The notes under the pieces are model-generated. The model did no database searches. It saw nothing but the letters and a program-made list of their open reading frames with translations, and was not told where the DNA came from. From positions 124,001-188,000 of the forward strand of contig VXMD01000082.1 in assembly GCA_009841255.1 (NCBI GenBank): a stretch of DNA of 64,000 bases, written 5' to 3'. The position numbers and the translations under genes were made by a program. How positions within the stretch are numbered: the stretch's first letter is position 1; each line of letters starts with the position of its first letter. This DNA comes from Candidatus Poribacteria bacterium. GTDB taxonomy: Bacteria > Poribacteria > WGA-4E > WGA-3G. Positions 10,939 through 61,941 of the stretch are shown here, piece after piece.

Positions 10939-11763
10939 TTAGTACTTAGTCTTCACGCCTGCCCACGTGGTTGCCATCTTGTCAGTAGGATCAATCGCTA
11001 AGGCTGAATGCATACCATCCAACATCGTTTCAATGTCCGCTTGCTCCAAAGCGACATCAAAGATGACCACTTCATCAATAGTTACCGCCCCGAAGCGTGC
11101 GCCACCACAACAGTCATCAAATCCGATATTGACGGGACCGCTATCGGCATCAATCGGATTCTTCGCCAAATCTAAGGTGCTCGCTTCTTCCGCATCGATA
11201 TAGATTGCCCACTTCCCGGTCTTACTGTCAAAAGTGGTCGTGTACATGTGCCACTGGGTAATATCTTTGGGGCCAACATTCCCGTCGTTCCATCCCCCGG
11301 GTTTATTCCAACAGCCGCCGTTGCAAACGGGCCAGGCAACATTTTTCGTGCCTTGGTTGGGATGGATGATATAGGCGTTCCGCTTTTCAACCATCCAGCC
11401 GTGTTGGTTCCACGTATCATTTGGACTTTTCGCCCACGCTGAGACCGTGATCGCTTTCGTTGGGTTGTCATGTTCGGCGATCCGAACGAAAGCACCTTTA
11501 CCGTCAAATTCCAGTGCCTGTCCAAATTGCCCCTTCACCCATTGCGGTTTCCCTTCAAATTCGCCCTCCAGTCCATTCCCGGAATCATCGGTTGCCATAT
11601 TTCCTTTGCCTGCATCAAAAAGCCACATCCCGACAATCGTATCAGGATCGATTTCGGCAGAGGCCGTGGAGACGCACAAAACACCAATCCCAAAAAGACT
11701 GAAGCACACGAGGACTAAACTTACAAGAAAAAACTTGCTGCCAGAACTCATACTGAAATTCAT
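10939..11763 (-). CDS. Secreted LamG-domain protein with conserved C-terminal tail
   Basis: The 274-residue protein starts with a signal peptide (hydrophobic residues 10-34, cleavage near STASA). A concanavalin A-like LamG fold follows (IVGMWLFDAGKGN, GQALEFDGKGAFVRI, VTVSAWAK-like, TIDEVVIFDVAL). Such domains bind glycans or proteins outside the cell. The end, ALAIDPTDKMATTWAGVK, matches the ends of the secreted proteins at 32347 and 39484, a shared tail of unknown purpose. ATG at 11763 has GGAGG upstream. A near-consensus sigma-70 promoter lies at 11882-11910. Confidence 0.85.
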   Translation of the reverse strand: MNFSMSSGSKFFLVSLVLVCFSLFGIGVLCVSTASAEIDPDTIVGMWLFDAGKGNMATDDSGNGLEGEFEGKPQWVKGQFGQALEFDGKGAFVRIAEHDNPTKAITVSAWAKSPNDTWNQHGWMVEKRNAYIIHPNQGTKNVAWPVCNGGCWNKPGGWNDGNVGPKDITQWHMYTTTFDSKTGKWAIYIDAEEASTLDLAKNPIDADSGPVNIGFDDCCGGARFGAVTIDEVVIFDVALEQADIETMLDGMHSALAIDPTDKMATTWAGVKTKY

Positions 11764-11881
11764 TTGTACCTCCTGCTCAATATTACAAATTCAAGGACTT
11801 TATACATACATCTGCGCAATTTATACGGACGCTACAACTGTGCAAAAGCATAAATCGTCGCGAAAACATCAACATACATCT

Positions 11882-27662: not shown

Positions 27663-29108
27663 CTACTTTACCTCGCTCATCAGGAACGAGACCTGTGCCA
27701 TAATGAAGAAGAGTAGATTAAACAGCACCAATAAACCGACTTGGGATAACACACTCCGATAGGAAATCTGCTCCGAAAATACCGGAACAGCATTCGGATC
27801 CACAGGTTTTTGGGATAACCCCTCTTTCACAGGATAGATATGGAGACTCTCTGGGTCACCCTGGTCTTCCGTTTTAACGAAGTCTATGAATGTCTGTCGG
27901 TAGCGGCGCGCTTGTTTGACAAAATTCATATAACCGACGATACTCGTGTTCGCGAGTCCCTCCATTGCATACTGAAAAGTCGCTATCGGAGAGATTTGGG
28001 TGAGATCTCGAGCGAGTTGCACCTGTTGAAGCTGCTGGTCAATGTGTCCATCGGCAATTTGTGTGTCCGTATCGTTGATTGCTGTGAAGTATTCCGCCCA
28101 GAGACGCGTCACGGAAATTCTTTCAAGAGAAGGTGATTTTTTTAACCGCTTTGGAGAACCGCGTTGCCACTCGTCCTCGATCTGGTCTAATTGCGCCCGT
28201 CTTCGCATGGAGATTTCATCAACAGATGGAATCGGATTCAGGTTACTGACAAAGGTACCCAGTAAACTCGGGAAAACAAATGCCAAGCAGACCCAAGTTA
28301 ACAACAGCCACACCAAACTTGTGATAGCATTTGAAACGCGACTTGAAAAGAACAATCCAAGAAAAATAAAGACAGAGATGTGCAACGCAAAAAGCCCGAC
28401 TATCCCCAAAATTCTCAGCCAGTCCGCCGAGTCAAATGGGATACTGCCGATGAGAAGAATGATTAAGAGGTTGAGTAGAACACCCATAACAAGTGGCACC
28501 ATGAGGGTCACAAACGCCCCGAGGTATTTCCCTAACAATACCTGTCCGCGGGAGACCGTGTTCGACATTATCAGGCTCAGCGTGCCGCGCGCCCGTTCCC
28601 CAGCGATAGCATCAAACGTGAATAGGATCGCAAAGAAACTCATCAGGACCCCGATGAAGACCCAGTTAATTTTCACGCGTCCTGTCGAATTGCTACCAGA
28701 ATTTACGACCTCATACTCTAACCTCAATGGGTGTCGCCACGCGTAGTCCTCATCCTCAATACCGCTACTTCGACTAATATTGTAATCGCTTTTCAATTTA
28801 ATAGAACGCGATACGACTTCATCAACACCACCGGCACAGAATATCAGACGACTGGGGTGTTTCGGGATATCCCCAGGTCCCCTAAGTGCTAACTCTGCTA
28901 AACTTACGTTCGCTTGCTCTTTAATATGTTTCCTATTTTGTCTCACTCGTTCGTTATAGGCATTAATCTGGTCAGTATAACCCCTATCGCCGAGGCTATA
29001 GATCAAAGCATTCGCCACAAACAAAACAGGCAGGAGGATTATCATCAAGGCAAACCGGAGGGTCGTGAGATTGTGATGAATTTCTTTTTTTGCAATGTAC
29101 CATATCAT
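27663..29108 (-). CDS. ABC-2 type transporter permease
   Basis: This 481-residue protein has a first helix at about 17-40, a 110-residue external domain, five helices (FIGVLMSFFAILFTFDAIAGERARGTL onward), a second soluble loop and a last helix. The signature FDAIAGERARGTLSLIMSNTVSRGQVLLGKYLG is that of ABC-2 permeases with large external loops. Its partner at 29342 has the same design. No ATPase gene is in the neighbourhood. ATG at 29108 follows a leader-A tail (CCGGCAAGGAATAATGAAAAT). Substrate unknown. Confidence 0.88.
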   Translation of the reverse strand: MIWYIAKKEIHHNLTTLRFALMIILLPVLFVANALIYSLGDRGYTDQINAYNERVRQNRKHIKEQANVSLAELALRGPGDIPKHPSRLIFCAGGVDEVVSRSIKLKSDYNISRSSGIEDEDYAWRHPLRLEYEVVNSGSNSTGRVKINWVFIGVLMSFFAILFTFDAIAGERARGTLSLIMSNTVSRGQVLLGKYLGAFVTLMVPLVMGVLLNLLIILLIGSIPFDSADWLRILGIVGLFALHISVFIFLGLFFSSRVSNAITSLVWLLLTWVCLAFVFPSLLGTFVSNLNPIPSVDEISMRRRAQLDQIEDEWQRGSPKRLKKSPSLERISVTRLWAEYFTAINDTDTQIADGHIDQQLQQVQLARDLTQISPIATFQYAMEGLANTSIVGYMNFVKQARRYRQTFIDFVKTEDQGDPESLHIYPVKEGLSQKPVDPNAVPVFSEQISYRSVLSQVGLLVLFNLLFFIMAQVSFLMSEVK

Positions 29109-29341: not shown

Positions 29342-30865
29342 TCAACTCATATCATACCGTAGGAAGGACACATAAGCCGCCATGAATAGAACGATATTCC
29401 ATGCCAATAAAATCAGAACATCCACAGAAGCGCGTGCGAAACTTTCTGAGAGGGAAAGCCTTTTATGTTTAAAAACAGGCAGATCCGCCAAATCCGCAGC
29501 CCCCTGATCTGTAGAGAACCATGCGCGCGAAGAAAACGCCTCTTTATCCTTCAGATACTCAACAATCTCACGTTTATAGGCTCTGGATCCCTCAATAAAA
29601 TCGTTATAACTCTGCCGGTCGGTCCCTGCTATTGTCCCGACAGCGAAGTGATATACGTCTGCGAACGAGATACGGGAGAGCGCGTCTGCAAACTTTGTAT
29701 TTTTCTCTCGTTCTGCCGCAGGTTTGTTGAGAATCTCCTCCGCTTTATTCGCATATTCAGCCCGAAGCCGCTCTTGATACCCTAAAAGCTCTTGGAAGAT
29801 AGTGGTATCTGCCTTGTCAACACTTGTGACGCTATAACGCCTTAGTCTGAAATAGCCTCCAGTCGTGGAACTCGAGCCTAATCCCGTCGAACTCGTCTCA
29901 GGTTCCCAAGTAATGGACGCTTGCAAATCGTCGTAGCCTCTCTGTTTGAAGTAGGCATCCCGTTCCCTTTTATACTCGTCCCAGACATCGAAGGCAGGTT
30001 GGAGAAACGTTCCCTCAGATTTCGACACATACGGCGAGAATTTATCCACTGCGAACGTTACAACATTCGCATGAACACTCGTCAGAATCACCCAGATAAA
30101 CATGGAAAGGATTAAGGTCGTTGCAGCTGTCTTCGTCCAAACCGACAGGAGCAATCCCAGAAGGTACCACGTCGATACGTACAACAACGAAACACCGAAC
30201 ATCAGGACAATATGGGCAATATCGTTTCCATCAAAGCCGGTAACCGGAGAAGAGACAGCGATGAGGAGTGCCACGATTAAACTCACCAAAACAATCGGGA
30301 ACAGCGATAGCATTCCGCCGAGATATTTTCCCAAGATTACTGTATCCCTCGGTATCGAATTGGATAATACAAGCTTCAGCGTGCCGTCTTCCCTCTCTCC
30401 CGAAACGGTATTGTAAGCAAACAGAATCGCCAACGCGCTCAGCACGATTTTGAAGATAAAAACCACATCAACAGAGAGGAACATCGCGAGGAAAGGGTTG
30501 TCCGAACCTCGTTTCTGTGTCGGTGCCTCCCACATAGGGGAAGAAAATACAAAAATAGGCTTTCCTAACTCAACGGTGACCGTATTTGCTCCGTCATTCT
30601 CCGTTCCGACGTTAAAGATACTCAACGGATTCGGTTTCCGGTGCGCTTTGGGTTTGATGTCGACATAGAGATCCCATTCCTGCGCTTCCGTCTCTGCCTC
30701 CCGGAGAGCAGTGTTATACCCCGACAAACGTTTCTCGTAATCGTCCACCTGAACGAAAACGGCAACAGCCGTTGAAAGCACGCACACAACAAACCCAATC
30801 ATAAATCGGGATGTTAACACATTCGAGACGAATTCTCGTTGGATAACCAGCCACAGTGTCTGCAT
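29342..30865 (-). CDS. ABC-2 type transporter permease, paralogue
   Basis: This 507-residue protein has the same layout as the gene at 27663: one N-terminal helix, external domain, a helix bundle starting SALAILFAYNTVSGEREDGTLKL, a second large loop and a final helix. The motif SGEREDGTLKLVLSNSIPRDTVILGKYLGG is the ABC-2 signature. GGAGG lies four bases before the ATG. The two permeases probably form a heterodimer; the ATPase must be elsewhere. Confidence 0.88.
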   Translation of the reverse strand: MQTLWLVIQREFVSNVLTSRFMIGFVVCVLSTAVAVFVQVDDYEKRLSGYNTALREAETEAQEWDLYVDIKPKAHRKPNPLSIFNVGTENDGANTVTVELGKPIFVFSSPMWEAPTQKRGSDNPFLAMFLSVDVVFIFKIVLSALAILFAYNTVSGEREDGTLKLVLSNSIPRDTVILGKYLGGMLSLFPIVLVSLIVALLIAVSSPVTGFDGNDIAHIVLMFGVSLLYVSTWYLLGLLLSVWTKTAATTLILSMFIWVILTSVHANVVTFAVDKFSPYVSKSEGTFLQPAFDVWDEYKRERDAYFKQRGYDDLQASITWEPETSSTGLGSSSTTGGYFRLRRYSVTSVDKADTTIFQELLGYQERLRAEYANKAEEILNKPAAEREKNTKFADALSRISFADVYHFAVGTIAGTDRQSYNDFIEGSRAYKREIVEYLKDKEAFSSRAWFSTDQGAADLADLPVFKHKRLSLSESFARASVDVLILLAWNIVLFMAAYVSFLRYDMS

Positions 30866-30981: not shown

Positions 30982-32316
30982 TTATTTATCCTCCAAGGAT
31001 TGTCCGGATTGCCTATCCCCTTTTTCAAGGAGGGCAATACCAACACGTTGCAAACTCTCAGGTGTTCCGATACGCCATTTCCCATCTATCATACTCACAA
31101 ACACAAGTGCGTCCCGACCCGCGGCCAATCCGCGAAGTGCCCAATTGGTGTAAGCAACCGGTTCTCCACTTGTCCACTGCCATTCGGTTTGATTTTCTAC
31201 AGGAGTCAACCCGATCAAAAACGGATCCCGTCCGAATACTTCCACGAGCCACTTCTGTTCTGCTTCGTCGTTAATCGATACCAAATGCGCTTCTTCAGCA
31301 ATCGCCATGGCACGGGCATCCTTCCAAGTCTTACACTGAATCCTTTTGTAAGCATGTCCATTGGTAAGATTCACCACCCATGTTCCTATTAGGTTCGGCA
31401 TCTGTGGGACTGACGGGGCTTGAACCTTTTTTGGTATCGATGGGACTGGTGGCGGCACTTGGACATCCTCCGGAAGCGGCGTTGGCGCATTCGGAACAGG
31501 TGGTATTGAAGCCTTGCTCAATCGGAACACCAAATCATGACGGCGTTGTTCCTCCGCGATCTTAAACGTTTCTCCCATTGCCGTGTCCCCTTGATATTCC
31601 ACAGACACTGTGCAAAACGCCGGCAAATTCACATACATCACAATGTAACCATCCGAATCTGTATAGGTTGGACTCCTGCTGCCTTTCCCGCTATTAACAC
31701 CATCTAAACTCCGATAGTGTAGGTGCAACTTTGTGGCTGCGTCGGTTAAAGGGGTTCCATCCGCCAAGAGGACTCGGCAGCGGATGCGCATTCGAGGCCG
31801 CACCCTTACTGTTATATCTTTGATGTCCACCCTTGACTTTATGTAAAGCGGGATGCCACCTACAGCTGATACTTTCTTCGGTTCGACTTCAAAAGTAGAC
31901 AGGAACCTAATACGCTGCTCATGCGATATCTGGAAATTTGACCTGTCACTTGTCAAGAAACGTAAGCCTCCGATCTCAATAGCGTGAATCTCCTTATCGG
32001 ATTCAAAGGTTCCTGTTTTTGGGATCACTACCAATTTCGCGTGTCCGGGAACTATGTCGTTGATTCGGAAGTCTCCTGCTGCATCGGTTCGCGCATGTCG
32101 CATCGGCGTGGGCATCTGCCACATCTCGCCATCAATCATGTCAATCGGCTGAATTCCCAACGTGAGATCGGAAACGGGATTCCCTTCCATATCGATAACG
32201 CGCCCAGAGAGGGTACTCGCGTCTTCTTCAGCACTACTGGGCAAAGGTGCAGCGAGTAAAAGTGCCAAAATCCCAACGAGAGCTGCAGGCGGGTGTCTGA
32301 AGTTTGGAAATCTCAT
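30982..32316 (-). CDS. Secreted protein: carboxypeptidase-regulatory-like domain plus C-type lectin domain
   Basis: The 444-residue protein has a signal peptide (to about residue 29). A beta-sandwich CarboxypepD_reg-like domain follows (TLSGRVIDMEGNPVSDL, ARTDAAGDFRINDIVPG), then a second beta domain and a Pro-rich linker (270-310). The C-type lectin fold is at about 315-425: NGHAYKRIQCKTWKDARAMA, AHLVSINDEAEQKWL, FLIGLTP, EWQWTSGEPVAYTNWA. GGAGAAA precedes the ATG. It lies 30 bases after the LamG gene, so both are read from the ECF-like promoter at 33381. Likely a surface or extracellular sugar binder. Confidence 0.82.
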   Translation of the reverse strand: MRFPNFRHPPAALVGILALLLAAPLPSSAEEDASTLSGRVIDMEGNPVSDLTLGIQPIDMIDGEMWQMPTPMRHARTDAAGDFRINDIVPGHAKLVVIPKTGTFESDKEIHAIEIGGLRFLTSDRSNFQISHEQRIRFLSTFEVEPKKVSAVGGIPLYIKSRVDIKDITVRVRPRMRIRCRVLLADGTPLTDAATKLHLHYRSLDGVNSGKGSRSPTYTDSDGYIVMYVNLPAFCTVSVEYQGDTAMGETFKIAEEQRRHDLVFRLSKASIPPVPNAPTPLPEDVQVPPPVPSIPKKVQAPSVPQMPNLIGTWVVNLTNGHAYKRIQCKTWKDARAMAIAEEAHLVSINDEAEQKWLVEVFGRDPFLIGLTPVENQTEWQWTSGEPVAYTNWALRGLAAGRDALVFVSMIDGKWRIGTPESLQRVGIALLEKGDRQSGQSLEDK

Positions 32317-32346: not shown

Positions 32347-33180
32347 TCAATTCTTCCATACCGAACCTTTGATATCCCCCCAAGTAGTGGCAACCTTACC
32401 TTTGGGTGAGACCGCCAAAGCCCCTCCCATTACTTTTCTGATTTCAGATTGCGTCAGGGCGCGTCGCCATAAACCTACTTCGTCAATTGAACCGTTTTTG
32501 AAGGTATATTGTGGATGGTTCTTGGCACACCCGATGCGCAGGTCCGCGTCATTAACACCAATGAATTTAAATTTTGTTTTGTGGTCAGAAAGAATTTTGC
32601 CGTCCAGATAGATTCCCACGCCTTTGCCATCGTAAGTTCCAGTGATGTGATGCCACTCCTTATCCACCATTCGCCCCCAGGTCCTGAAGAGCCATGTACC
32701 GCCTCTATCTTCGTCTAATTTGCCCAAGATCATTTCGATATTTGGATCATCAAGATTCCTCAGAAACCCAGGATTTTCGGGATCAGGGAATAGTCCTAAG
32801 CCATAGGACTTCTCCTTCTCATCCAAGATATGGCTCCCATTATCAAACAACTGTCCCAAAGCTGTGTCCCAATTTTCATGATACACCCACGCCATCATTG
32901 TGATCTCGTCTTCGATTTTTAGCAGATCGTCGGCAGGAATATGGATGCAATCACCATCTTTCGCTTCAGCGGCAATATGCATAGCGTTCCCATACTTACC
33001 TTCGATAAAATCTATATTTCCAACGACTTCGGCATCAAGATCGTTGCCGGATGCATCGAGAATTTTCTTGCCTTTGACGTTGTCAAAAGTAAAATAAAGG
33101 ACGAGATTCTTCTCCAGTTCAGCAATTGCTTGGCTCGCTGTGAATAGCACAGCGATGAAAAGAAATGCTAACCATTTCAT
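32347..33180 (-). CDS. Secreted LamG-domain protein with conserved C-terminal tail
   Basis: The product has about 277 residues from ATG 33180, chosen because CGGAGG lies seven bases upstream and a signal peptide follows (MKWLAFLFIAVLFTASQAIA). The LamG fold is recognisable from LVLYFTFDNVKGKKILDASG, GKYGNAMHIAAEAKDG and SIDEVGLWRRALTQSEI. The ending GALAVSPKGKVATTWGDIK matches the tails at 10939 and 39484. It is first in an operon with the lectin protein. The ECF-like promoter at 33381-33409 lies about 200 bases upstream. Confidence 0.87.
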   Translation of the reverse strand: MKWLAFLFIAVLFTASQAIAELEKNLVLYFTFDNVKGKKILDASGNDLDAEVVGNIDFIEGKYGNAMHIAAEAKDGDCIHIPADDLLKIEDEITMMAWVYHENWDTALGQLFDNGSHILDEKEKSYGLGLFPDPENPGFLRNLDDPNIEMILGKLDEDRGGTWLFRTWGRMVDKEWHHITGTYDGKGVGIYLDGKILSDHKTKFKFIGVNDADLRIGCAKNHPQYTFKNGSIDEVGLWRRALTQSEIRKVMGGALAVSPKGKVATTWGDIKGSVWKN

Positions 33181-33380
33181 TGGTATTTCCTCCGATTCGT
33201 ATTGTGAACATCCTTGCTTTAGCCTTGAAAAGTCCATGAGGTTTCAAAGCTCGTTGAGTCAATAACTGACCTACACTTTCACTCGGCAGATGGATATTGA
33301 TGCGGAATGATTTCAACAATTTCATCTTCAGCTGGAATCTCAAGGGGCAATTTGAGAAATATATATTGCCTTGTGACGTT

Positions 33381-33409
33381 ATGTCGCGTTTTAGGGAAGG
33401 AAAGGTTGC
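33381..33409 (-). promoter_or_regulatory. ECF-type promoter candidate for the LamG/lectin operon
   Basis: On the minus strand GCAACC and CGACAT are 17 bases apart, preceded by TTTTAT. A 48-base block (33369-33416) containing it is repeated at 37878-37925 with about 40 identical positions. The same pattern occurs before both sigma fusion genes. Confidence 0.6.
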
Positions 33410-33427
33410 ATAAAATGAATTTTATGC
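33408..33427. promoter_or_regulatory. GCATAAAAT palindrome overlapping the ECF-type promoter
   Basis: GCATAAAAT and ATTTTATGC are perfect nine-base arms around GA. The palindrome touches the -35 element and recurs, with a partly degraded right arm, at 37917. Confidence 0.5.
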
Positions 33428-34836: not shown

Positions 34837-37821
34837 TCACCGACTGTTGCCCAACATTCCTGACCAGATGGCGTGTTGCAAATCATTTCTCTCTGTCCTC
34901 TTCGTGATGGTAACATCAATAGTATCCGCCTCCAACGGCGGCTTTTTAGATGTGTCCCCCTTTAAGGTGACAGGTAGGGTAACTTTTTCACCCTCTCTTT
35001 CAAGGGTCAACTCCACCACATCATCGGACTTCCAATCCCTGGCAACCCTTCTGATGTCGTCAAACGTTTTCACCGGTGTGCCGTTGATGCCTACCAATTG
35101 GTCATTATCTTGATACTGACGTGAATTGTCGATAAACATACCTCCGCCTGGAGGTCCCCCGAATCCACCAATACCGAGCATTTCATGCACAATATAACCA
35201 ATACGAGGCAGTCTTTCACCAAATTCTATCTCAACATCCACACCTGCGTCTTTAAGGTATTCCTCTAAGGGCAATTGTTCCGTCCCTGTCACATATTTGC
35301 GGAAGAACGGTTTAAAATCCTCGCCTGCAATTCGACTCACAATTCTGATGACATCTCTCATTGTATAAGGGACACCCGTGAGACCAAACTCGCGATACAT
35401 CTGTTTCATCACATCGTCTAAGCTGCTCCGATTTTCCGTAAGGGAGCGGATCTGCAAGTCCAAAGCCGCAGCAATCAGACTCCCACCGTCATAGACAAGC
35501 TCTCGGTTAGCGGTTTTGTCTTCACCCGCCTCGCGGATAGAAAACTCACCCTGTTGAGAGAGATACGCCTCCCATATCCGTTCAAGATTTCTGAGAAAAT
35601 CGGTTTCAGAAACAAGTCCAAGGCGGACAGAGACGATCTCTGAATAGTATTGGGTAAAACCGGCACAAAACCAGTATTCTTGCTCCTTAAAACTGATGGC
35701 ACCTGTTCCCTCCCGGATATCAATATAACTCCCATTCCAGAGATAGCAAACCAAACGCGCTACCGGCGGTAGCCAAAAACCTCTGTTGACTTCGTCCAAG
35801 GTCTCACCGATCAGAATACTCATGCTACGTCGGGAGACACCACCGCTCCTATAGCCTTCTGTGCCATAAGGGTTAGCGACAAATAGCAGTTGATCTTTTG
35901 GCGTGCCACCGAAAATCCCTGAATATACATGGAGAAGTGCCGCAACAACTTGTGCTACCTCATCCATAGCTTCTTTAAGGCGTCCACCGAGAGCAAGCAC
36001 AATCTTGGTTTCTGCCCCGGTTTCTACCAGACGTTCAGCATGCTCGCCGATCACAAGATATGCATACATCAGGTCGTTCTGATCTGTAATGATGAAACGA
36101 TGTCTATCCGGTTCAATCCGTTTCCAAGGCGTTGAGACTGACCAATTATCAGGCACATCAACATACAGTTCAATATCGTCTACTTCGTCGACAATAAACA
36201 GCGCATATCCGGTCCAGAAAACACAGTCATCCTGGGCATAAGGGGCTTCATCCCTGCCCCAATGCCACTCCCGTTCATCATGATTCAGTAATACTTTGTA
36301 ACGCAGTGTTATTGGTGACGCATTGCGTGTTTCAACCGCCCACTGCGTTTTGTCAATTTCCTCGATAATCAGGGTCCTCCCATTCGCATGAGTAACAGTC
36401 AAGTCCTGCAGATAATGACCATATCCATCGTCCAGCCATTCAGTCCCAAAACGACTCATGGATAAGAGCAGCGGCTTTTGTCCTCCTTTTGTGCCGCTGT
36501 TAACTTTCGGTGTAAGTACACATTTGACATGCGCCACTCGCGGATTATCAGCATCAATTTTGACCTCATACCTTGCCGAGGCAAGTTCCATCGGGTTCTC
36601 AAGATTTTCTAACTGACGGAAATTCCGGATGACGTTCCATTCCTCAATAACGGCTTCGTTGCGATAGGTGTTATGCCATTTGTAGGTCCACTGCGTGCCT
36701 ATCTGTACGGGGAAATACGCCTCGTTCTGAAGCGGAATTTCATACTTAAGCAATTCGGCTTCCGTGACAACACCATTCGAGTGCTCATAGCGCATCTTCA
36801 CAAGCCCAACGCCCCTCGCGAACCAGAGATAACGCGTCCCGTTTACAAGGGCGTTTCGCAATTCAGCATCGGTATCTTCAACATCAGCGTCCGTGAAAAC
36901 GGTTTTATGCTTCAGACACGCCGAGAAAGTGCCTGCGGATACATTGACTGTCTCATAATCTTCTAAGGTTGCCGTCGCTTGTGATTTCCAAGCCCCTTCC
37001 TGTTCCCAAGAACTACCGATAACCAACGGAAATCTAAAGATGTCAACCCAACCGTGTTTCAGATAGTGCAGCAACATGTACATCGGCGATGGATCCCCAC
37101 CACCCCATCCTCTCGTATGGAATCCAGAAGATGTGAAGACTGTATCGGTATGGTTGAAATTGAAACCCCCTTCTGCTAAATGTTTTCCGGTTTCTGTTGC
37201 GGCAGTCGCTTGAAAGTCAACGCGACGCGGCTCGCTTTTTAACAAATTTGTGCCCAAGGTTTCGCGAAGCATCGATTCCTCCGTTTCTAATCGTTTCCGA
37301 GCTCGGTACAGCCGACTCTTTACTGTGTTCAGCGATACATCTAAAAGATCGCTCACCTCTTCACACGTTAAACCTTTGTAATAGTGCAATACCATCACAG
37401 AACGTTCATTGACTGGCAGCTTCTGGAGGAGGCGTTCCACGACCTCACGCAGTCCATGTGTTGACGCTTGCGTCTGCTGTTCCTCAAGATAGCGTGCATA
37501 GGACAACTTCTCCAATTCAGATTTTGGCATCGCATCCAGCGACTGCATCGTAATAGGTTTCCGCCGTAGCCATTCAATGCACTGCCGCTTCGCTATGACA
37601 TGTAACCACCCCGAAAAACGATTGGGGTCTTTCAAACTTGGAAGCGACTTAAAAGCCTGGATGAAGGTATCCTGTGTAATCTCCTGTGCGGCGTGGAAAT
37701 CACCGATCTCACACCAGGCGAGCGAATGAACCCACTTCCGGTGTTTTTCGACCAGCACGGTGAACGCACTTTCATCACCCGACAAGATGCGTTGAATCAG
37801 ATCAACATCTTCATTTTTCAC
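34837..37821 (-). CDS. ECF sigma factor fused to degenerate M61-peptidase-like and PDZ domains
   Basis: This is a 994-residue protein. Residues 1-185 are a complete ECF sigma factor: region 2 with EITQDTFIQAFKSL, region 4 with LTCEEVSDLLDVSLNTVKSRLYRARKRL. After a long beta-rich middle, residues about 560-850 resemble M61 glycyl aminopeptidases (YWFCAGFTQYYSEIVSVRLGL, FKPFFRKYVTGTEQLPLEEYL). The zinc motif HExxH is replaced by VARLVCYLWN, so it should not be a peptidase. A PDZ domain (about 880-960, DNDQLVGINGTPVKTFDDI) ends the protein. No membrane helix is evident. GTG at 37821 is chosen from GGAGG upstream and alignment with the sigma fusion at 58873. It carries its own ECF-type promoter. 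Confidence 0.87.
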   Translation of the reverse strand: MKNEDVDLIQRILSGDESAFTVLVEKHRKWVHSLAWCEIGDFHAAQEITQDTFIQAFKSLPSLKDPNRFSGWLHVIAKRQCIEWLRRKPITMQSLDAMPKSELEKLSYARYLEEQQTQASTHGLREVVERLLQKLPVNERSVMVLHYYKGLTCEEVSDLLDVSLNTVKSRLYRARKRLETEESMLRETLGTNLLKSEPRRVDFQATAATETGKHLAEGGFNFNHTDTVFTSSGFHTRGWGGGDPSPMYMLLHYLKHGWVDIFRFPLVIGSSWEQEGAWKSQATATLEDYETVNVSAGTFSACLKHKTVFTDADVEDTDAELRNALVNGTRYLWFARGVGLVKMRYEHSNGVVTEAELLKYEIPLQNEAYFPVQIGTQWTYKWHNTYRNEAVIEEWNVIRNFRQLENLENPMELASARYEVKIDADNPRVAHVKCVLTPKVNSGTKGGQKPLLLSMSRFGTEWLDDGYGHYLQDLTVTHANGRTLIIEEIDKTQWAVETRNASPITLRYKVLLNHDEREWHWGRDEAPYAQDDCVFWTGYALFIVDEVDDIELYVDVPDNWSVSTPWKRIEPDRHRFIITDQNDLMYAYLVIGEHAERLVETGAETKIVLALGGRLKEAMDEVAQVVAALLHVYSGIFGGTPKDQLLFVANPYGTEGYRSGGVSRRSMSILIGETLDEVNRGFWLPPVARLVCYLWNGSYIDIREGTGAISFKEQEYWFCAGFTQYYSEIVSVRLGLVSETDFLRNLERIWEAYLSQQGEFSIREAGEDKTANRELVYDGGSLIAAALDLQIRSLTENRSSLDDVMKQMYREFGLTGVPYTMRDVIRIVSRIAGEDFKPFFRKYVTGTEQLPLEEYLKDAGVDVEIEFGERLPRIGYIVHEMLGIGGFGGPPGGGMFIDNSRQYQDNDQLVGINGTPVKTFDDIRRVARDWKSDDVVELTLEREGEKVTLPVTLKGDTSKKPPLEADTIDVTITKRTERNDLQHAIWSGMLGNSR

Positions 37822-37889
37822 GATTCCCCTCCGAGTTATTTGATAGCAAGTTTCGGCTTGCAAGCTTCGCCGAAATGCCTTGTGACGCT

Positions 37890-37918
37890 ATGTCGTATTT
37901 TAACGGGGGTAAGGTTGC
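37890..37918 (-). promoter_or_regulatory. ECF-type promoter candidate for the sigma-M61 fusion gene
   Basis: GCAACC and CGACAT on the minus strand are 17 bases apart, leaving a leader of about 60 bases. It sits inside the 48-base block shared with 33369-33416, which supports autoregulation. Confidence 0.62.
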
Positions 37919-37936
37919 ATAAAATGCATTTTATTT
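37917..37936. promoter_or_regulatory. AT-rich palindrome next to the ECF-type promoter
   Basis: ATAAAATGCATTTTAT (37919-37934) is a perfect 16-base palindrome, related to GCATAAAATGAATTTTATGC at 33408. Position suggests an operator over the -35 region. The remaining bases to 38106 show no gene. Confidence 0.5.
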
Positions 37937-39483: not shown

Positions 39484-40191
39484 TTAAAATTGTTTTAAGT
39501 TTCCCCATACTGTTGCGAGTTTCGCGTGGGGCGTTACGGACAATCCACCTTTATCTGGAATACGGGGTCCCGTGATCTTAAAATTATCAAATCTCGCTGT
39601 GTAATTCGCGATCCCTAACCCAACTCTACCGGCAGGAAAGTCAGGGAATCCATGGAGGGGTTCTAAAGTTATCGGATCCAGAACCCGCTTCCCATTTATC
39701 CAGAAGGTCAACTGGTTTCCATGCACGCTCAATTTGAAGGTTGACCATTTCCGTAATCTCAATAAGGGGTGAGGTTCTCGAGCGTAAACCAAAAACGCTC
39801 TGCCATGCAAATCACCACCAAAACATTCCGCCACGGGTGCTGCTTGATCTGAGCTCTCAATTCCACATACCACACCCCATGTCCCTTCAATCCGAGCAGC
39901 AATTGCAACGTTCCCAGGTCCGTGTTTCCCAAGTGGTTTAACATCAAATTCAATTTCATAATCTCGCCACGTCTCTTCTCCAATTGTTAGTAAACGAGTT
40001 ATGGTTCCAGCATTACTTATTCCCTGAAGTTCACCATCAATAATCTCCCAAGAACCGGGATCATCAAAACCGAACATCACCAATGGTTGCCAATCGACAA
40101 GTTCCCCGTTATCAAAAGTATCCAGAAATGTCCCCGCCAAAGCGGAGAAAGCGAAAAAAAATATCCCTAACCCGATGAACACTAATTTCAT
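39484..40191 (-). CDS. Secreted DUF1080/LamG-like protein with conserved C-terminal tail
   Basis: The product has 235 residues from ATG 40191 (GGAGG eight bases upstream), with a signal peptide (MKLVFIGLGIFFFAFSALA). One jelly-roll domain follows: LDTFDNGELVDWQPL, WRDYEIEFDVKPLG, LRKWSTFKLSVHGNQLTFWINGKRV, GRVGLGIANYTARFDNFKI. This is the pattern of 3-keto-disaccharide hydrolase (DUF1080) and related glycan-binding proteins. The end GLSVTPHAKLATVWGNLK matches the tails of the two LamG proteins. A degenerate TTATGCACC motif lies upstream at about 40344. Confidence 0.82.
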   Translation of the reverse strand: MKLVFIGLGIFFFAFSALAGTFLDTFDNGELVDWQPLVMFGFDDPGSWEIIDGELQGISNAGTITRLLTIGEETWRDYEIEFDVKPLGKHGPGNVAIAARIEGTWGVVCGIESSDQAAPVAECFGGDLHGRAFLVYAREPHPLLRLRKWSTFKLSVHGNQLTFWINGKRVLDPITLEPLHGFPDFPAGRVGLGIANYTARFDNFKITGPRIPDKGGLSVTPHAKLATVWGNLKQF

Positions 40192-40376
40192 TATAATTAC
40201 CTCCAGAAAATTTACCAAAGTTCACCTAACCAACACTCGGTAACTTTGCATCTCGTGTGATACACACCTACCTAAAGAAAGCCAAAACCACCAAGAGACA
40301 TTGGAATCCTTTTATAATTAAAGATATGTTGTTGAAACGGAAAAGGTGCATAACTTTGAAAAAATAACATAAATCA

Positions 40377-58796: not shown

Positions 58797-58825
58797 GCAC
58801 CCGTTTCACTCCTAAACAGCGTCAC
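58797..58825 (+). promoter_or_regulatory. ECF-type promoter candidate for the sigma-WD40 fusion gene
   Basis: GCACCC and CGTCAC are 17 bases apart, preceded by TTAT and with CCTAAACAG in the spacer, like TAAAACG at 33381. The predicted leader is about 40 bases. Confidence 0.58.
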
Positions 58826-58872
58826 CAGATACGAATCCGAAATGGCAAACCATTTCTTTTTGGAGACGACTC

Positions 58873-61800
58873 ATGAAAAACGACGATATTCAACTTATCC
58901 AACGCGTCCTTGCCGGCAACGATGATGCCTTCTCCGTGCTTGTGAAAAAGTATAAGAAACAGGTTCACGCACTCGCGTGGCGGAAAATTGGGGATTTCCA
59001 CATCGCGGAGGAGATTACGCAGGACACATTCCTGAAGGCATACAAGAAACTTGCAACACTGAAGAAGCCGCAACGGTTTGCAAGTTGGCTTTATGTCATT
59101 GCCGCAAACCGATGCAGTTCGTGGCTCCGAAAAAAACGTTTGTGGACGCAGCCATTGGAGCAGTTGGAGGAAACGGACATCGAGCAGCAACAAAGAGCAA
59201 CGTATTCTCGGTATGTCATTGAGGAAAACGAACGGATAGCCGCAGCTGCACAACGCGATGTCGTCAAAAAATTGCTTGCGAAACTCCAAGAGAGCGAACG
59301 TACCGTCATCACGCTTCACTACTTCGGTGAGATGTCATGCACAGAGATTGGCGCGTTTCTGGGTGTATCCGCAAATACAATCAAAAGTCGCCTCCATCGC
59401 GCACAGCAGCGTTTAAAGAAGGAGGAACCGATGATAAGAGAGGCTTTAGATAACTTCCAAATTACGCCGAATCTCACAGAGAACATTATGCGGGAAATCG
59501 CTCGTATCAAACCCTATACACCGTCCAGCAGTAAACCCTTCATGCCGTGGGCAATTGCTGCTTCCACGATTGCAGTAGTCCTGCTGATGTTAGGCATCGG
59601 AAACCATCAATACTTAGGGCGTTTTCAAAAGCCATACAGTTTCGATGCAACTTCAGAGATGAAGATTGAACTCATTGAGGCACCGCTTGTGCTGGACTTT
59701 GTCTCCAAAACAGATAAACGAACGGAATTTGGAGATCCGGACACGCCCAATAAGAGCAGGACACCTGAACGGAAACCTAATGATATCCCAGCATTATATG
59801 GGGAAGCACAAACGGAGGCAACCGTCGAAAATTACGCGAAATGGGAACTCCCAAAAGAGGCAAAAGCGCGCTTAGGAAAGGGAGGGATCAATGCGATGCA
59901 ATTCTCACCCGATGGCACACAACTCGCCGTCGGTAGTAATATCGGCGTCTGGCTCTATGACGTGGAGACGGGTAAAGAAATATCCCTATTCGCAGGAATG
60001 TGCCAATCTCTTTCATTTTCACCCGATGGACGTTATCTTGTCAACGGTGGTGGTCTGTATAGAACAACCAAAATCCAAGTGTGGGACACAACCACGGGTT
60101 ACAAAGTGGCACTCATTGACGCTCCAGCTTCTGCCGCAGCGTTGCGGTTTTCCGCAGACAGTAAAAGGCTTATCAGTTTGAGCAGTTGGGGAGACACAAT
60201 CAGTCGGTGGGATATTAAGACTGGACAAGGAATTACAGAAAACCTTGAAGAACGACAATTTGCCTCGGGGACACGGTTTCCTGAAGCTCACGCGCTCACG
60301 TATGACAAAATTGCGATTGGGAGTATAGAAGGGAAAATTCAGTTGTGGAACACAATAACTGGTGAAAAGTTATCCTCCCTCAGAGAGCATTCAGATTTAC
60401 TCGATCAACCCTTAGGCGCGCCTTCACGCCCACCTCCACTGAATCGAAAACAGGTCTTGGCATTGGCATTTTCACCGAATGGCACGCGGCTCGCCAGCGG
60501 AAGTAAGGATAAAGCAGTCCAATTATGGGATAACACCACCAATAGCGAACCGATTGTGCTTCAAAAACATACGGGTTGGACAAATGTACTGGCATTCTCT
60601 CCTAACGGAAAGATGCTTGCAAGTGGGAGTACTGATAAGACGGTGCAGTTGTGGAATACCGACACGGGTGAACCGATTGCAACACTTACGGGACATCTCA
60701 ACGGTATTAATGCGTTAGCGTTTTCGCCCGATGGCACCACACTCGCAAGTGGAAGTACGGACGGCACGATCCGGTTCTGGAATATTAAGACGGGAGATGT
60801 CCTCGCTCCTCGTATCACCGGACATACGGAGTGGGTAAAAGGAGTGACTTTCTCCAAAGATAGTTCCACACTTGTCAGTGTGGCGTTCAATGGTGCCATT
60901 AATTTTTGGGATGTAAAAACATCACAAAGAACCAATCACCAAATTGCTGGACACCGAGATTGGTTAGCGACTTTAGCGTTTTCACCGGATGGCACGCGGC
61001 TCGCCAGCATCGGCGCGGAAAGTACTATGGTCATAGGTTTTGGTCGTGTGACATATCCTGATTCTCTGGTTCGTTTGACTGACGTAAGTACAGGGCGCCA
61101 GGTAGCAACCCTGAAGGATAAGAAAGGTGCCTCAAATTTGGTGTTTTCGCCGGATGGCAAAACAGTAGCCTTCGGCAATCACGATGAAATTCGTTTGTGG
61201 AATACGGAAACAGATAGCACTCTTGATATTCCTCTCTCTGATCAGGATGATGTTCAAAATATCCTTCACAATGCCCATGAAAATGGGGCACCGGGTATGA
61301 TGCCTCACCAAATGCCTCAAATTAGTGCTTTGGTGTTCTCACCAGATGGAACAAGACTTGCCAGTGCAACCATGGAGGGAAACGTTCATATGTGGGACAC
61401 GGAAACTGGAATTGGCTTAGTTTCTCTCACAGAGCAGGATCCAGACGATGTAAAGTATGGCGTGAAAGCGGCGGCAGATGCTGATCCTGACGCAACCATA
61501 GTAAGCACCACATTTCCCGACGTAACTGTCGTGTATCGAGATCCTATCACAGCGCTGGCATTTTCTGCAAACGGTAAATTGCTTGCCGCGGGAAGTCGTA
61601 AGCAGATTCGTCTCTGGAACATGGGAACTGGGAATTGGGGAAAAGGAATCTCCTCAATTAACAATCGCAAAGATAGCAGAGAGGTTTTTCACGGTTCTGA
61701 GGTATTGGTGTTTTCGCCAGATAGTACCGTGCTTATCAATGGCGATGGAAACGGCAGAATCCAGTTGTGGGACATAACAACAGGAGACGAAATCATTACT

Positions 61801-61941
61801 CTCAATGGACATATGGAAGGTGTGGAGACGTTGCAATTTTCACCCGACGGCAACACACTCGTCAGTGCAGGACAGGACGGAACAATTCTCTTATGGGACT
61901 GGAACGAAATCCTCAACGGTTTGCCTGTACAGGATAAATAG
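58873..61941 (+). CDS. ECF sigma factor fused through a membrane helix to WD40 repeats
   Basis: This is a 1022-residue protein. Residues 1-185 are a complete ECF sigma factor (EITQDTFLKAYKKLATL; MSCTEIGAFLGVSANTIKSRLHRAQQRL). A helix at about 224-241 crosses the membrane. From about residue 335 there are at least ten WD40 blades (repeats of LAFSPDGTRLASGS and VQLWNTDTGE), which should lie outside the cytoplasm. GGAGA precedes the ATG. Inside the gene AAGGAGG lies five bases before an in-frame ATG at 59431, so a version without the sigma part could be made. Sigma and sensor in one chain removes the need for a separate anti-sigma. Confidence 0.88.
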   Translation: MKNDDIQLIQRVLAGNDDAFSVLVKKYKKQVHALAWRKIGDFHIAEEITQDTFLKAYKKLATLKKPQRFASWLYVIAANRCSSWLRKKRLWTQPLEQLEETDIEQQQRATYSRYVIEENERIAAAAQRDVVKKLLAKLQESERTVITLHYFGEMSCTEIGAFLGVSANTIKSRLHRAQQRLKKEEPMIREALDNFQITPNLTENIMREIARIKPYTPSSSKPFMPWAIAASTIAVVLLMLGIGNHQYLGRFQKPYSFDATSEMKIELIEAPLVLDFVSKTDKRTEFGDPDTPNKSRTPERKPNDIPALYGEAQTEATVENYAKWELPKEAKARLGKGGINAMQFSPDGTQLAVGSNIGVWLYDVETGKEISLFAGMCQSLSFSPDGRYLVNGGGLYRTTKIQVWDTTTGYKVALIDAPASAAALRFSADSKRLISLSSWGDTISRWDIKTGQGITENLEERQFASGTRFPEAHALTYDKIAIGSIEGKIQLWNTITGEKLSSLREHSDLLDQPLGAPSRPPPLNRKQVLALAFSPNGTRLASGSKDKAVQLWDNTTNSEPIVLQKHTGWTNVLAFSPNGKMLASGSTDKTVQLWNTDTGEPIATLTGHLNGINALAFSPDGTTLASGSTDGTIRFWNIKTGDVLAPRITGHTEWVKGVTFSKDSSTLVSVAFNGAINFWDVKTSQRTNHQIAGHRDWLATLAFSPDGTRLASIGAESTMVIGFGRVTYPDSLVRLTDVSTGRQVATLKDKKGASNLVFSPDGKTVAFGNHDEIRLWNTETDSTLDIPLSDQDDVQNILHNAHENGAPGMMPHQMPQISALVFSPDGTRLASATMEGNVHMWDTETGIGLVSLTEQDPDDVKYGVKAAADADPDATIVSTTFPDVTVVYRDPITALAFSANGKLLAAGSRKQIRLWNMGTGNWGKGISSINNRKDSREVFHGSEVLVFSPDSTVLINGDGNGRIQLWDITTGDEIITLNGHMEGVETLQFSPDGNTLVSAGQDGTILLWDWNEILNGLPVQDK
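59419..59433 (+). promoter_or_regulatory. Internal Shine-Dalgarno and ATG in the sigma-WD40 gene
   Basis: AAGGAGG, a five-base gap and ATG at 59431 mark a possible internal start after the sigma domain. The same bases serve as the actual start of the duplicate gene at 62109. Confidence 0.45.

Follow-up and report, generated by a model that had tools for sequence, protein, structure and literature searches.

The 64,000-nucleotide stretch of Candidatus Poribacteria DNA analysed here (the window) was found to carry on its minus strand a gene in which an ECF sigma factor is joined to a module of the M61 peptidase type, together with genes for a LamG-domain protein, a lectin-type protein and two ABC-2 permeases on the same strand (Table 1). 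The fusion gene is one uninterrupted frame, open from 37863 to 34837 in the ORF analysis, and the GTG at 37821 is its real start, with GGAGGGG 5-11 nt upstream, so that the coordinates given to the gene in a first-pass annotation (34837-37821) hold. The TTG at 37863 was rejected as the start, as it falls in the leader right behind the -10 element and is without a ribosome-binding site. Residue numbers used here are those of the 1008-aa frame counted from this TTG.

Table 1 Features of the fusion locus and of its predicted targets, in positions of the window.
Feature	Position	Strand	Basis or remark
Sigma-M61 fusion gene	34837..37821	-	GTG start, GGAGGGG at 37832-37826; 994 aa
ECF sigma domain, sigma2 + sigma4, residues 16-195	37279..37818	-	Pfam r2/r4; PDB SigW/RpoE; dN/dS 0.09-0.10 in window pairs
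Candidate internal translation start (Met198)	37270..37282	-	GGAGG 37282-37278, ATG 37272-37270; 19/19 orthologues
LolA/DUF3108-like beta domain (weak assignment), residues 210-425	36589..37236	-	AF2 pLDDT 89; Foldseek LolA3 9tp6 3e-5, DUF1329 4z48; weak DUF3108_like
Peptidase M61 N-terminal domain, residues 426-600	36064..36588	-	Pfam PF17899, 39.8 bits
M61 catalytic-type domain, pseudo-enzyme, residues 601-890	35194..36063	-	Pfam PF05299; Foldseek 4fgm/8j9c/7xyo
Ruined HExxH (RLVCY), residues 703-707	35743..35757	-	Alignment to active paralogues
Ala734 in place of third zinc ligand Glu	35662..35664	-	Alignment to active paralogues
PDZ domain, residues 895-985	34909..35181	-	Weak Pfam PDZ_2/PDZ_6; aligns in active M61 paralogues
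ECF-type promoter of fusion gene	37892..37919	-	TGCAACCTT (37919-37911), N15, CGAC (37895-37892); conserved ahead of orthologues
Second promoter copy, ahead of LamG gene	33383..33410	-	0 mismatches to extended motif
LamG-domain protein, secreted, bearing the genome-wide C-terminal tail; predicted target	32347..33237	-	Pfam Laminin_G_3; promoter upstream
C-type-lectin/CarboxypepD_reg protein, predicted target run	30982..32316	-	Pfam; same strand, 30 bp behind LamG
ABC-2 permease (ABC2_membrane_2/DUF3526), predicted target run	29342..30865	-	Pfam
Second ABC-2 permease, same predicted run	27663..29108	-	Pfam; conserved neighbour

Domains and distribution of the fusion protein

Pfam profiles placed sigma region 2 at residues 37-102 and region 4 at 140-192 and found no match to region 3 in the fusion, which is the arrangement of an ECF (sigma70 group 4) factor; TIGR02937 matched with 94 bits (cut-off 42.9). 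Further along, Peptidase_M61_N was matched at 432-599 (39.8 bits, cut-off 23), Peptidase_M61 at 727-774 (28.1 bits, cut-off 22) and PDZ at 918-967, the last with 20.4 bits and thus under its cut-off of 27. In a phmmer search of the PDB the front of the protein was related to SigW/RpoE and the back to 4fgm (492-881, 4e-13) and 8j9c. An AlphaFold2 model (mean pLDDT 77), computed on an alignment of collected loci, had the M61 structures 4fgm (8.5e-29), 8j9c and 7xyo as its top Foldseek matches, in line with an M61 fold. The structure prediction and profile search proposed in the first-pass annotation recovered the M61 domains, and its description of a sigma factor joined to an M61-type pseudo-peptidase was borne out.

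That annotation had not described the 215-residue domain between the sigma and M61 parts. When modelled alone this domain reached a pLDDT of 89, and its closest PDB matches were LolA3, a DUF1329 protein and a YmcC-like fold, with TM scores of about 0.4, which is weak; a LolA/DUF3108-like identity is tentatively assigned, in agreement with a weak DUF3108-like Pfam match. No transmembrane (TM) helix or signal was predicted in any segment of the fusion, and a location entirely in the cytoplasm is therefore expected. It contains no anti-sigma domain, and no anti-sigma gene was seen among the neighbouring genes listed, part of which were searched with profiles. The WD40-like repeats that are a trait of ECF57 and WD40-type ECF factors were not found in the fusion by Pfam.

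The full fusion, about 1000 aa long and with a module 63-86% identical to that of the window, is kept in at least 30 genomes, belonging to the window genus and to some members of another genus, and a match to the M61 module is present in 48 of 85 genomes of the phylum. All named relatives are Candidatus Poribacteria, where the search outside this phylum was one for close similarity alone; Poribacteria are known chiefly from sponges (PMC3909097). The survey of sigma-M61-PDZ fusions suggested in the first-pass annotation thus yielded full-length orthologues in many independent assemblies, and chance or an assembly or frameshift artefact was ruled out by these independent MAGs.

Loss of the zinc site and the active relatives

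The segment VARLVCYLWN, which had been proposed to replace the zinc motif, does align to (A/G)HExxHxxWN of intact relatives, with RLVCY occupying the position of HExxH and Ala734 that of the third ligand, so that the fusion has neither the HExxH nor the downstream Glu ligand of an active M61 enzyme. HExxH is destroyed in all 30 orthologues checked, its replacements including RLVCY, RLFCY, YMVSS, HMVSS, HVVGY, RVAGY, NVIGY and GVVCY. Most of them have Ala at the position of the third ligand, while the sigma-less relatives retain both HExxH and WFxEG. A zinc site rebuilt from other residues was rejected, as no conserved His, Asp, Glu or Cys substitute occurs across the orthologues.

In an M61 tree built without the motif columns the dead copies form a single clade (SH-aLRT 99), identical to this sigma-fused subfamily, and in the most parsimonious history HExxH was lost once and a sigma factor was joined to the module twice. 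Across the M61-PDZ part, eight columns fixed in the active enzymes are lost in the dead clade, four of them in active-site motifs (704, 707, 734 and 738), and 65 of the 94 active-invariant columns in 600-889 are still present. The dN/dS values are 0.15-0.22 for the dead catalytic domain and, in pairs with the window copy, 0.09-0.10 for the sigma domain, which rules out a decaying pseudogene. The kept columns and these ratios imply that fold and surface are selected without catalysis; loss of the active site and purifying selection, as read from the sequences, indicate a module that has lost catalysis and retained a function.

Sister to the dead clade is a group of soluble M61 proteins of about 800 aa, with no signal or TM helix and catalytically intact. 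In about ten genomes such an active sister sits directly downstream of the fusion. Its start codon is in most cases overlapped by the stop codon of the fusion, chiefly as TGATG and also as TAATG, or else the gene ends overlap, with an SD (Shine-Dalgarno) sequence just ahead. As judged from these junctions, the active sister is translationally coupled to the fusion, with which it has the whole module in common at 63-66% identity. Additional active, TM-anchored M61 copies lie further on in several genomes. The window genome has no other M61 gene, and in some other genomes too the dead copy occurs without an active paralogue.

A separate fusion of the order sigma-TM-LolA-like-M61-PDZ was noticed in two loci of the window genus (L112:1471-4788, plus strand, and L119:427-3666, minus strand). 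It has the same module as the window fusion, joined to a paralogous ECF sigma, but differs in the TM helix after sigma, in an intact HExxH and Glu ligand, and in a sigma domain only about 50% identical, and is therefore an independent fusion; it would correspond to a sigma factor that spans the membrane and whose outer part is a peptidase, apparently an active one.

In most genomes one ABC-2 permease gene or a pair of them follows downstream of the fusion, at times within 60 nt, and the counterpart of the first permease in Table 1 is directly downstream of it in several relatives. In the window this run is broken by a phytanoyl-CoA-dioxygenase-like gene on the opposite strand, and the LamG, lectin and permease genes have a separate promoter copy.

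Promoters, predicted targets and related sigma factors

ECF promoters have AAC in the -35 and CGxC in the -10 element. A motif of this type, AAC at -35 and CGTC or CGAC at -10, precedes the fusion gene, and the upstream regions of the orthologues have in common the sequence TTTTATGCAACCTT-N8-TAAAA-YR-CGACATAACGTCA or near variants. When the 42-base extended promoter was searched with up to 3 mismatches, the 5.73-Mb genome gave two sites, both in the window (37924-37883 and 33415-33374), and a reversed-pattern control gave none. Over 59 family genomes 34 sites were found, again against 0 for the control. All 23 genomes with an extended site have the fusion, and 10 genomes with the fusion have no site at that stringency. 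The co-occurrence has a Fisher p of 6e-9 in the authors' own tally, in which shared ancestry is ignored and five M61 proteins of about 1000 aa from another genus are counted as fusion without motif. Two of these five, L071 and L072, which are also two of the 10 without a site, proved to be joined to sigma and to have a ruined HExxH, and their genes have the core motif and lack the extended form. As the motif was defined on the same sequences, the evidential weight lies with the genome-wide counts and the control.

Apart from the fusion gene, the extended sites stand ahead of active TM-M61 genes (L091, L092, L097, L098), of genes for secreted proteins with a LolA-like domain (L091, L092, L095, with a similar protein in L165), of LamG genes (the window, L094, L117), of an ABC-2 permease that is the counterpart of 29342-30865 (L164) and of a gene for a 441-aa protein that has an active M61 gene next in line (L094). 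They are absent ahead of 16 distant active M61 genes, those of distant M61 lipoproteins included. From this placement we infer that the sigma domain of the fusion would read the extended promoter. Its core resembles the promoters of other sigmas of the family, so cross-recognition is possible.

About 28 ECF paralogues of the same clade, 39-54% identical to the sigma domain of the fusion, are encoded in the window genome. Nearly all have long and differing C-terminal parts, among them sortilin/BNR propellers, WD40, Kelch, PD40, Reg_prop and TPR with AhpC/TSA, and in 18 of the 28 a TM helix lies right behind sigma. A related promoter, agreeing in at least 11 of 12 letters, precedes 16 of the 28, where 0.33 is expected from shuffles; among the other ECF rows it precedes 1 of 18. 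The pattern points to an output module held in common, to which different sensors can be attached.

Several members of the wider family were noted. The window itself holds a second same-clade fusion at 58816-61938 on the plus strand, composed of sigma, a TM helix and a large WD40 propeller, with WD40-like repeats as in ECF57 or WD40-type ECF factors and a CGTC-type promoter just upstream (TGCACCCGTTTCACTCCTAAACAGCGTC). Two fusions end in TPR and an AhpC/TSA redoxin and are possible redox-sensing sigmas (L030:8039-10276 and L011:2074-4269, both minus strand). Three proteins of about 415-424 aa consist of sigma and a LolA-like domain and stop where M61 would start (L033:2628-3899, minus strand; L157:355-1608 and L162:770-2014, plus strand); their promoters are of the CGAC type in L157 and L162 and of the CGTC type in L033, so the LolA-like domain alone may suffice as a regulatory extension. 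One sigma of the clade shares its frame with a complete DnaN sliding clamp, in which all three Pfam domains are present (L028:16553-18361, minus strand, G000:C49). Cooperation of sigma and clamp is a feature of T4 late transcription, which this protein recalls; its DnaN part has an SD and ATG of its own, and the gene may thus be an in-frame junction and not a working fusion. Another ECF sigma is in frame with SAICAR synthetase (PurC), also with an internal SD and ATG (L024:1144-2739, plus strand, G000:C41), and is adjoined by a gene for sigma with a helix-turn-helix region (L024:2980-4182). The CGTC-type promoter was also found ahead of genes for an ABC ATPase, a MoxR ATPase, a MacB-like permease, an ABC exporter and a PA14-domain protein (L171, L172, L173, L174, L175; G000:C33, C41, C49, C38), which are candidates for the regulon of the wider sigma family.

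Possible modes of regulation and known systems

The first-pass annotation had proposed a one-component sensor, and this is still the most natural reading, strengthened by the co-location and predicted co-regulation with active paralogues. The fusion is probably a soluble, auto-regulating ECF sigma gated by its pseudo-M61 module and driving a local regulon of peptidase, transporter and envelope genes, as argued by the loss of HExxH, the selection on the module, the adjacent active sisters, the rare promoter and the precedent of ECF41. An aminopeptidase would have been duplicated, have lost catalysis and have become the built-in regulator of the sigma factor, in the form of the LolA-like domain and the inactive M61-PDZ part. 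Still folded and presumably still binding, the module would sense something that the active paralogues also handle, be it a peptide, a lipopeptide or a partner protein, and would thereby control the access of sigma2 and sigma4 to RNA polymerase, with no anti-sigma factor as a second protein. Once active, the sigma would transcribe its own gene, in positive autoregulation, and would drive from a near-identical promoter the local regulon. In relatives this would comprise active M61 and LolA-like secreted proteins, in the window genome the LamG/lectin proteins together with the ABC-2 permease pair.

Within this scheme the module would gate sigma, and its ligand may be something that active M61 enzymes process, either a peptide or, given the LolA-like domain, a lipopeptide. 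As the window genome has the dead copy alone, detection of an active paralogue's substrate cannot be the full explanation there. ABC-2 permeases and envelope proteins among the predicted targets are consistent with a transport or envelope response. A broader proposal is advanced tentatively, as a possibility somewhat short of probable: a silenced peptidase copy, fused to sigma, responds to the ligand of its active sisters by turning on their genes, the fusion being one of about 28 ECF sigmas per poribacterial genome that use one promoter grammar and interchangeable sensors (propellers, redoxins, LolA-like domains, the pseudo-peptidase) as a plug-in sensor system.

The module might instead act through a partner. 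Pseudo-M61 would then pair, by way of the PDZ/M61 surface, with an active M61 paralogue or another protein, and this pairing would keep sigma silent for as long as the enzyme has no substrate bound; the enzyme would be a trigger enzyme. The coupling of the active sisters and the shared module speak for such pairing, and ECF42-type TPR extensions are thought to act via partner proteins (PMC8999054); it is nonetheless rather unlikely, as the window genome and some others have the dead copy and no active paralogue, and the dead copy is still under purifying selection. Two products might also arise from the one gene. All 19 orthologues examined have GGAGGARnnnATG at Met198, in every one the sole in-frame start-like codon with GGAGG or AGGAG; Glu195 is the lone all-GAG column among 23 invariant Glu columns, and the sigma-less paralogues start at nearly the same position. 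Conservation of both SD and ATG makes a free pseudo-M61 product possible alongside the fusion, for which the pattern is suggestive only. Were sigma to act as the fusion or after cleavage, free pseudo-M61 could serve as a dominant regulator or as a decoy. This mechanism has a small share of the probability, since internal starts within ORFs are often unused, the rows compared are related, and an SD-like sequence at the equivalent of Met198 in a WD40-fused paralogue means that protein constraint may explain part of the conservation.

Proteolysis offers another route, in which the C-terminal module is an autoinhibitory tail that is cut off, the freed sigma domain then acting. Other extended ECFs, IutY and ECF52, are activated by proteolysis (PMC8999054), and the TM helix of 18 paralogues is compatible with intramembrane cleavage, but the fusion has no such helix and a simple tail needs no strongly conserved, folded pseudo-active-site domain, which makes this reading quite improbable. 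The first-pass annotation had further linked the PDZ domain to a C-terminal tail found on three secreted proteins of the window; if the domain reads this tail, the fusion would be a sensor of secretion or misfolding. The tail core, K-L-[ATS]-T-T-W-G, is indeed present on three such proteins (32347-33237, 10942-11790 and 39484-40218), but the genome has 39 sites for it (control 0) and the ends are VWKN and TKY in the two ORFs found by scan and KQF in 39484-40218, so that the terminal residues a PDZ would read are not conserved. Moreover, the tail proteins are secreted and the sigma fusion is predicted to be cytoplasmic, and PDZ is ancestral in M61 and present in the active enzymes. One indirect link is left, in that the tail-bearing LamG gene is itself a predicted target, and recognition of the tail by the PDZ domain is most improbable. 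In LamG proteins and similar secreted ones the core was seen towards the C-terminal end, and it is perhaps a surface-sorting or anchoring tag.

If gating by the pseudo-M61 module is correct, the locus would be a clean example from nature of an enzyme that has become a regulator of transcription, with active and dead copies adjoining, a single loss of catalysis and selection maintained. The rarity of the promoter lets the regulon be read from sequence, and the gating of anti-sigma-free ECF sigmas becomes directly testable in dominant uncultured sponge symbionts. About 28 different C-terminal parts on one sigma clade form a rich set in which sensors can be compared against a constant output.

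M61 peptidases (Peptidase_M61_N, Peptidase_M61 and PDZ; 4fgm, 8j9c, 7xyo) have the same fold, domain order and most conserved non-catalytic residues as the fusion, which differs from them in the loss of HExxH and usually of the third Glu ligand, in being joined to sigma and in being cytoplasmic. A metallopeptidase fold with a ruined zinc site is likewise used in regulation by pseudo-metallopeptidases such as AEBP1, in a review whose text makes no mention of M61 or sigma factors (PMC11266112). No paper on poribacterial ECF fusions or on sigma-peptidase fusions was found in the literature search, nor an M61 or pseudo-enzyme extension among the ECF groups in the literature searched. Anti-sigma-free ECFs with fused regulatory extensions are already known (PMC8999054), whereas no sigma factor joined to an inactive copy of an adjoining enzyme was met in the literature searched. 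For ECF41 the adjoining genes are the only detected targets and have a conserved promoter in common (PMC3426412, PMC8999054). Extended ECFs of the ECF41 type combine sigma2 and sigma4 with a C-terminal sensory domain and have local targets that share a promoter, an arrangement that is predicted for the fusion as well; in the fusion, the extension of about 800 aa is a peptidase that has lost its activity, and the genes of the active sisters lie next to it and are predicted targets.
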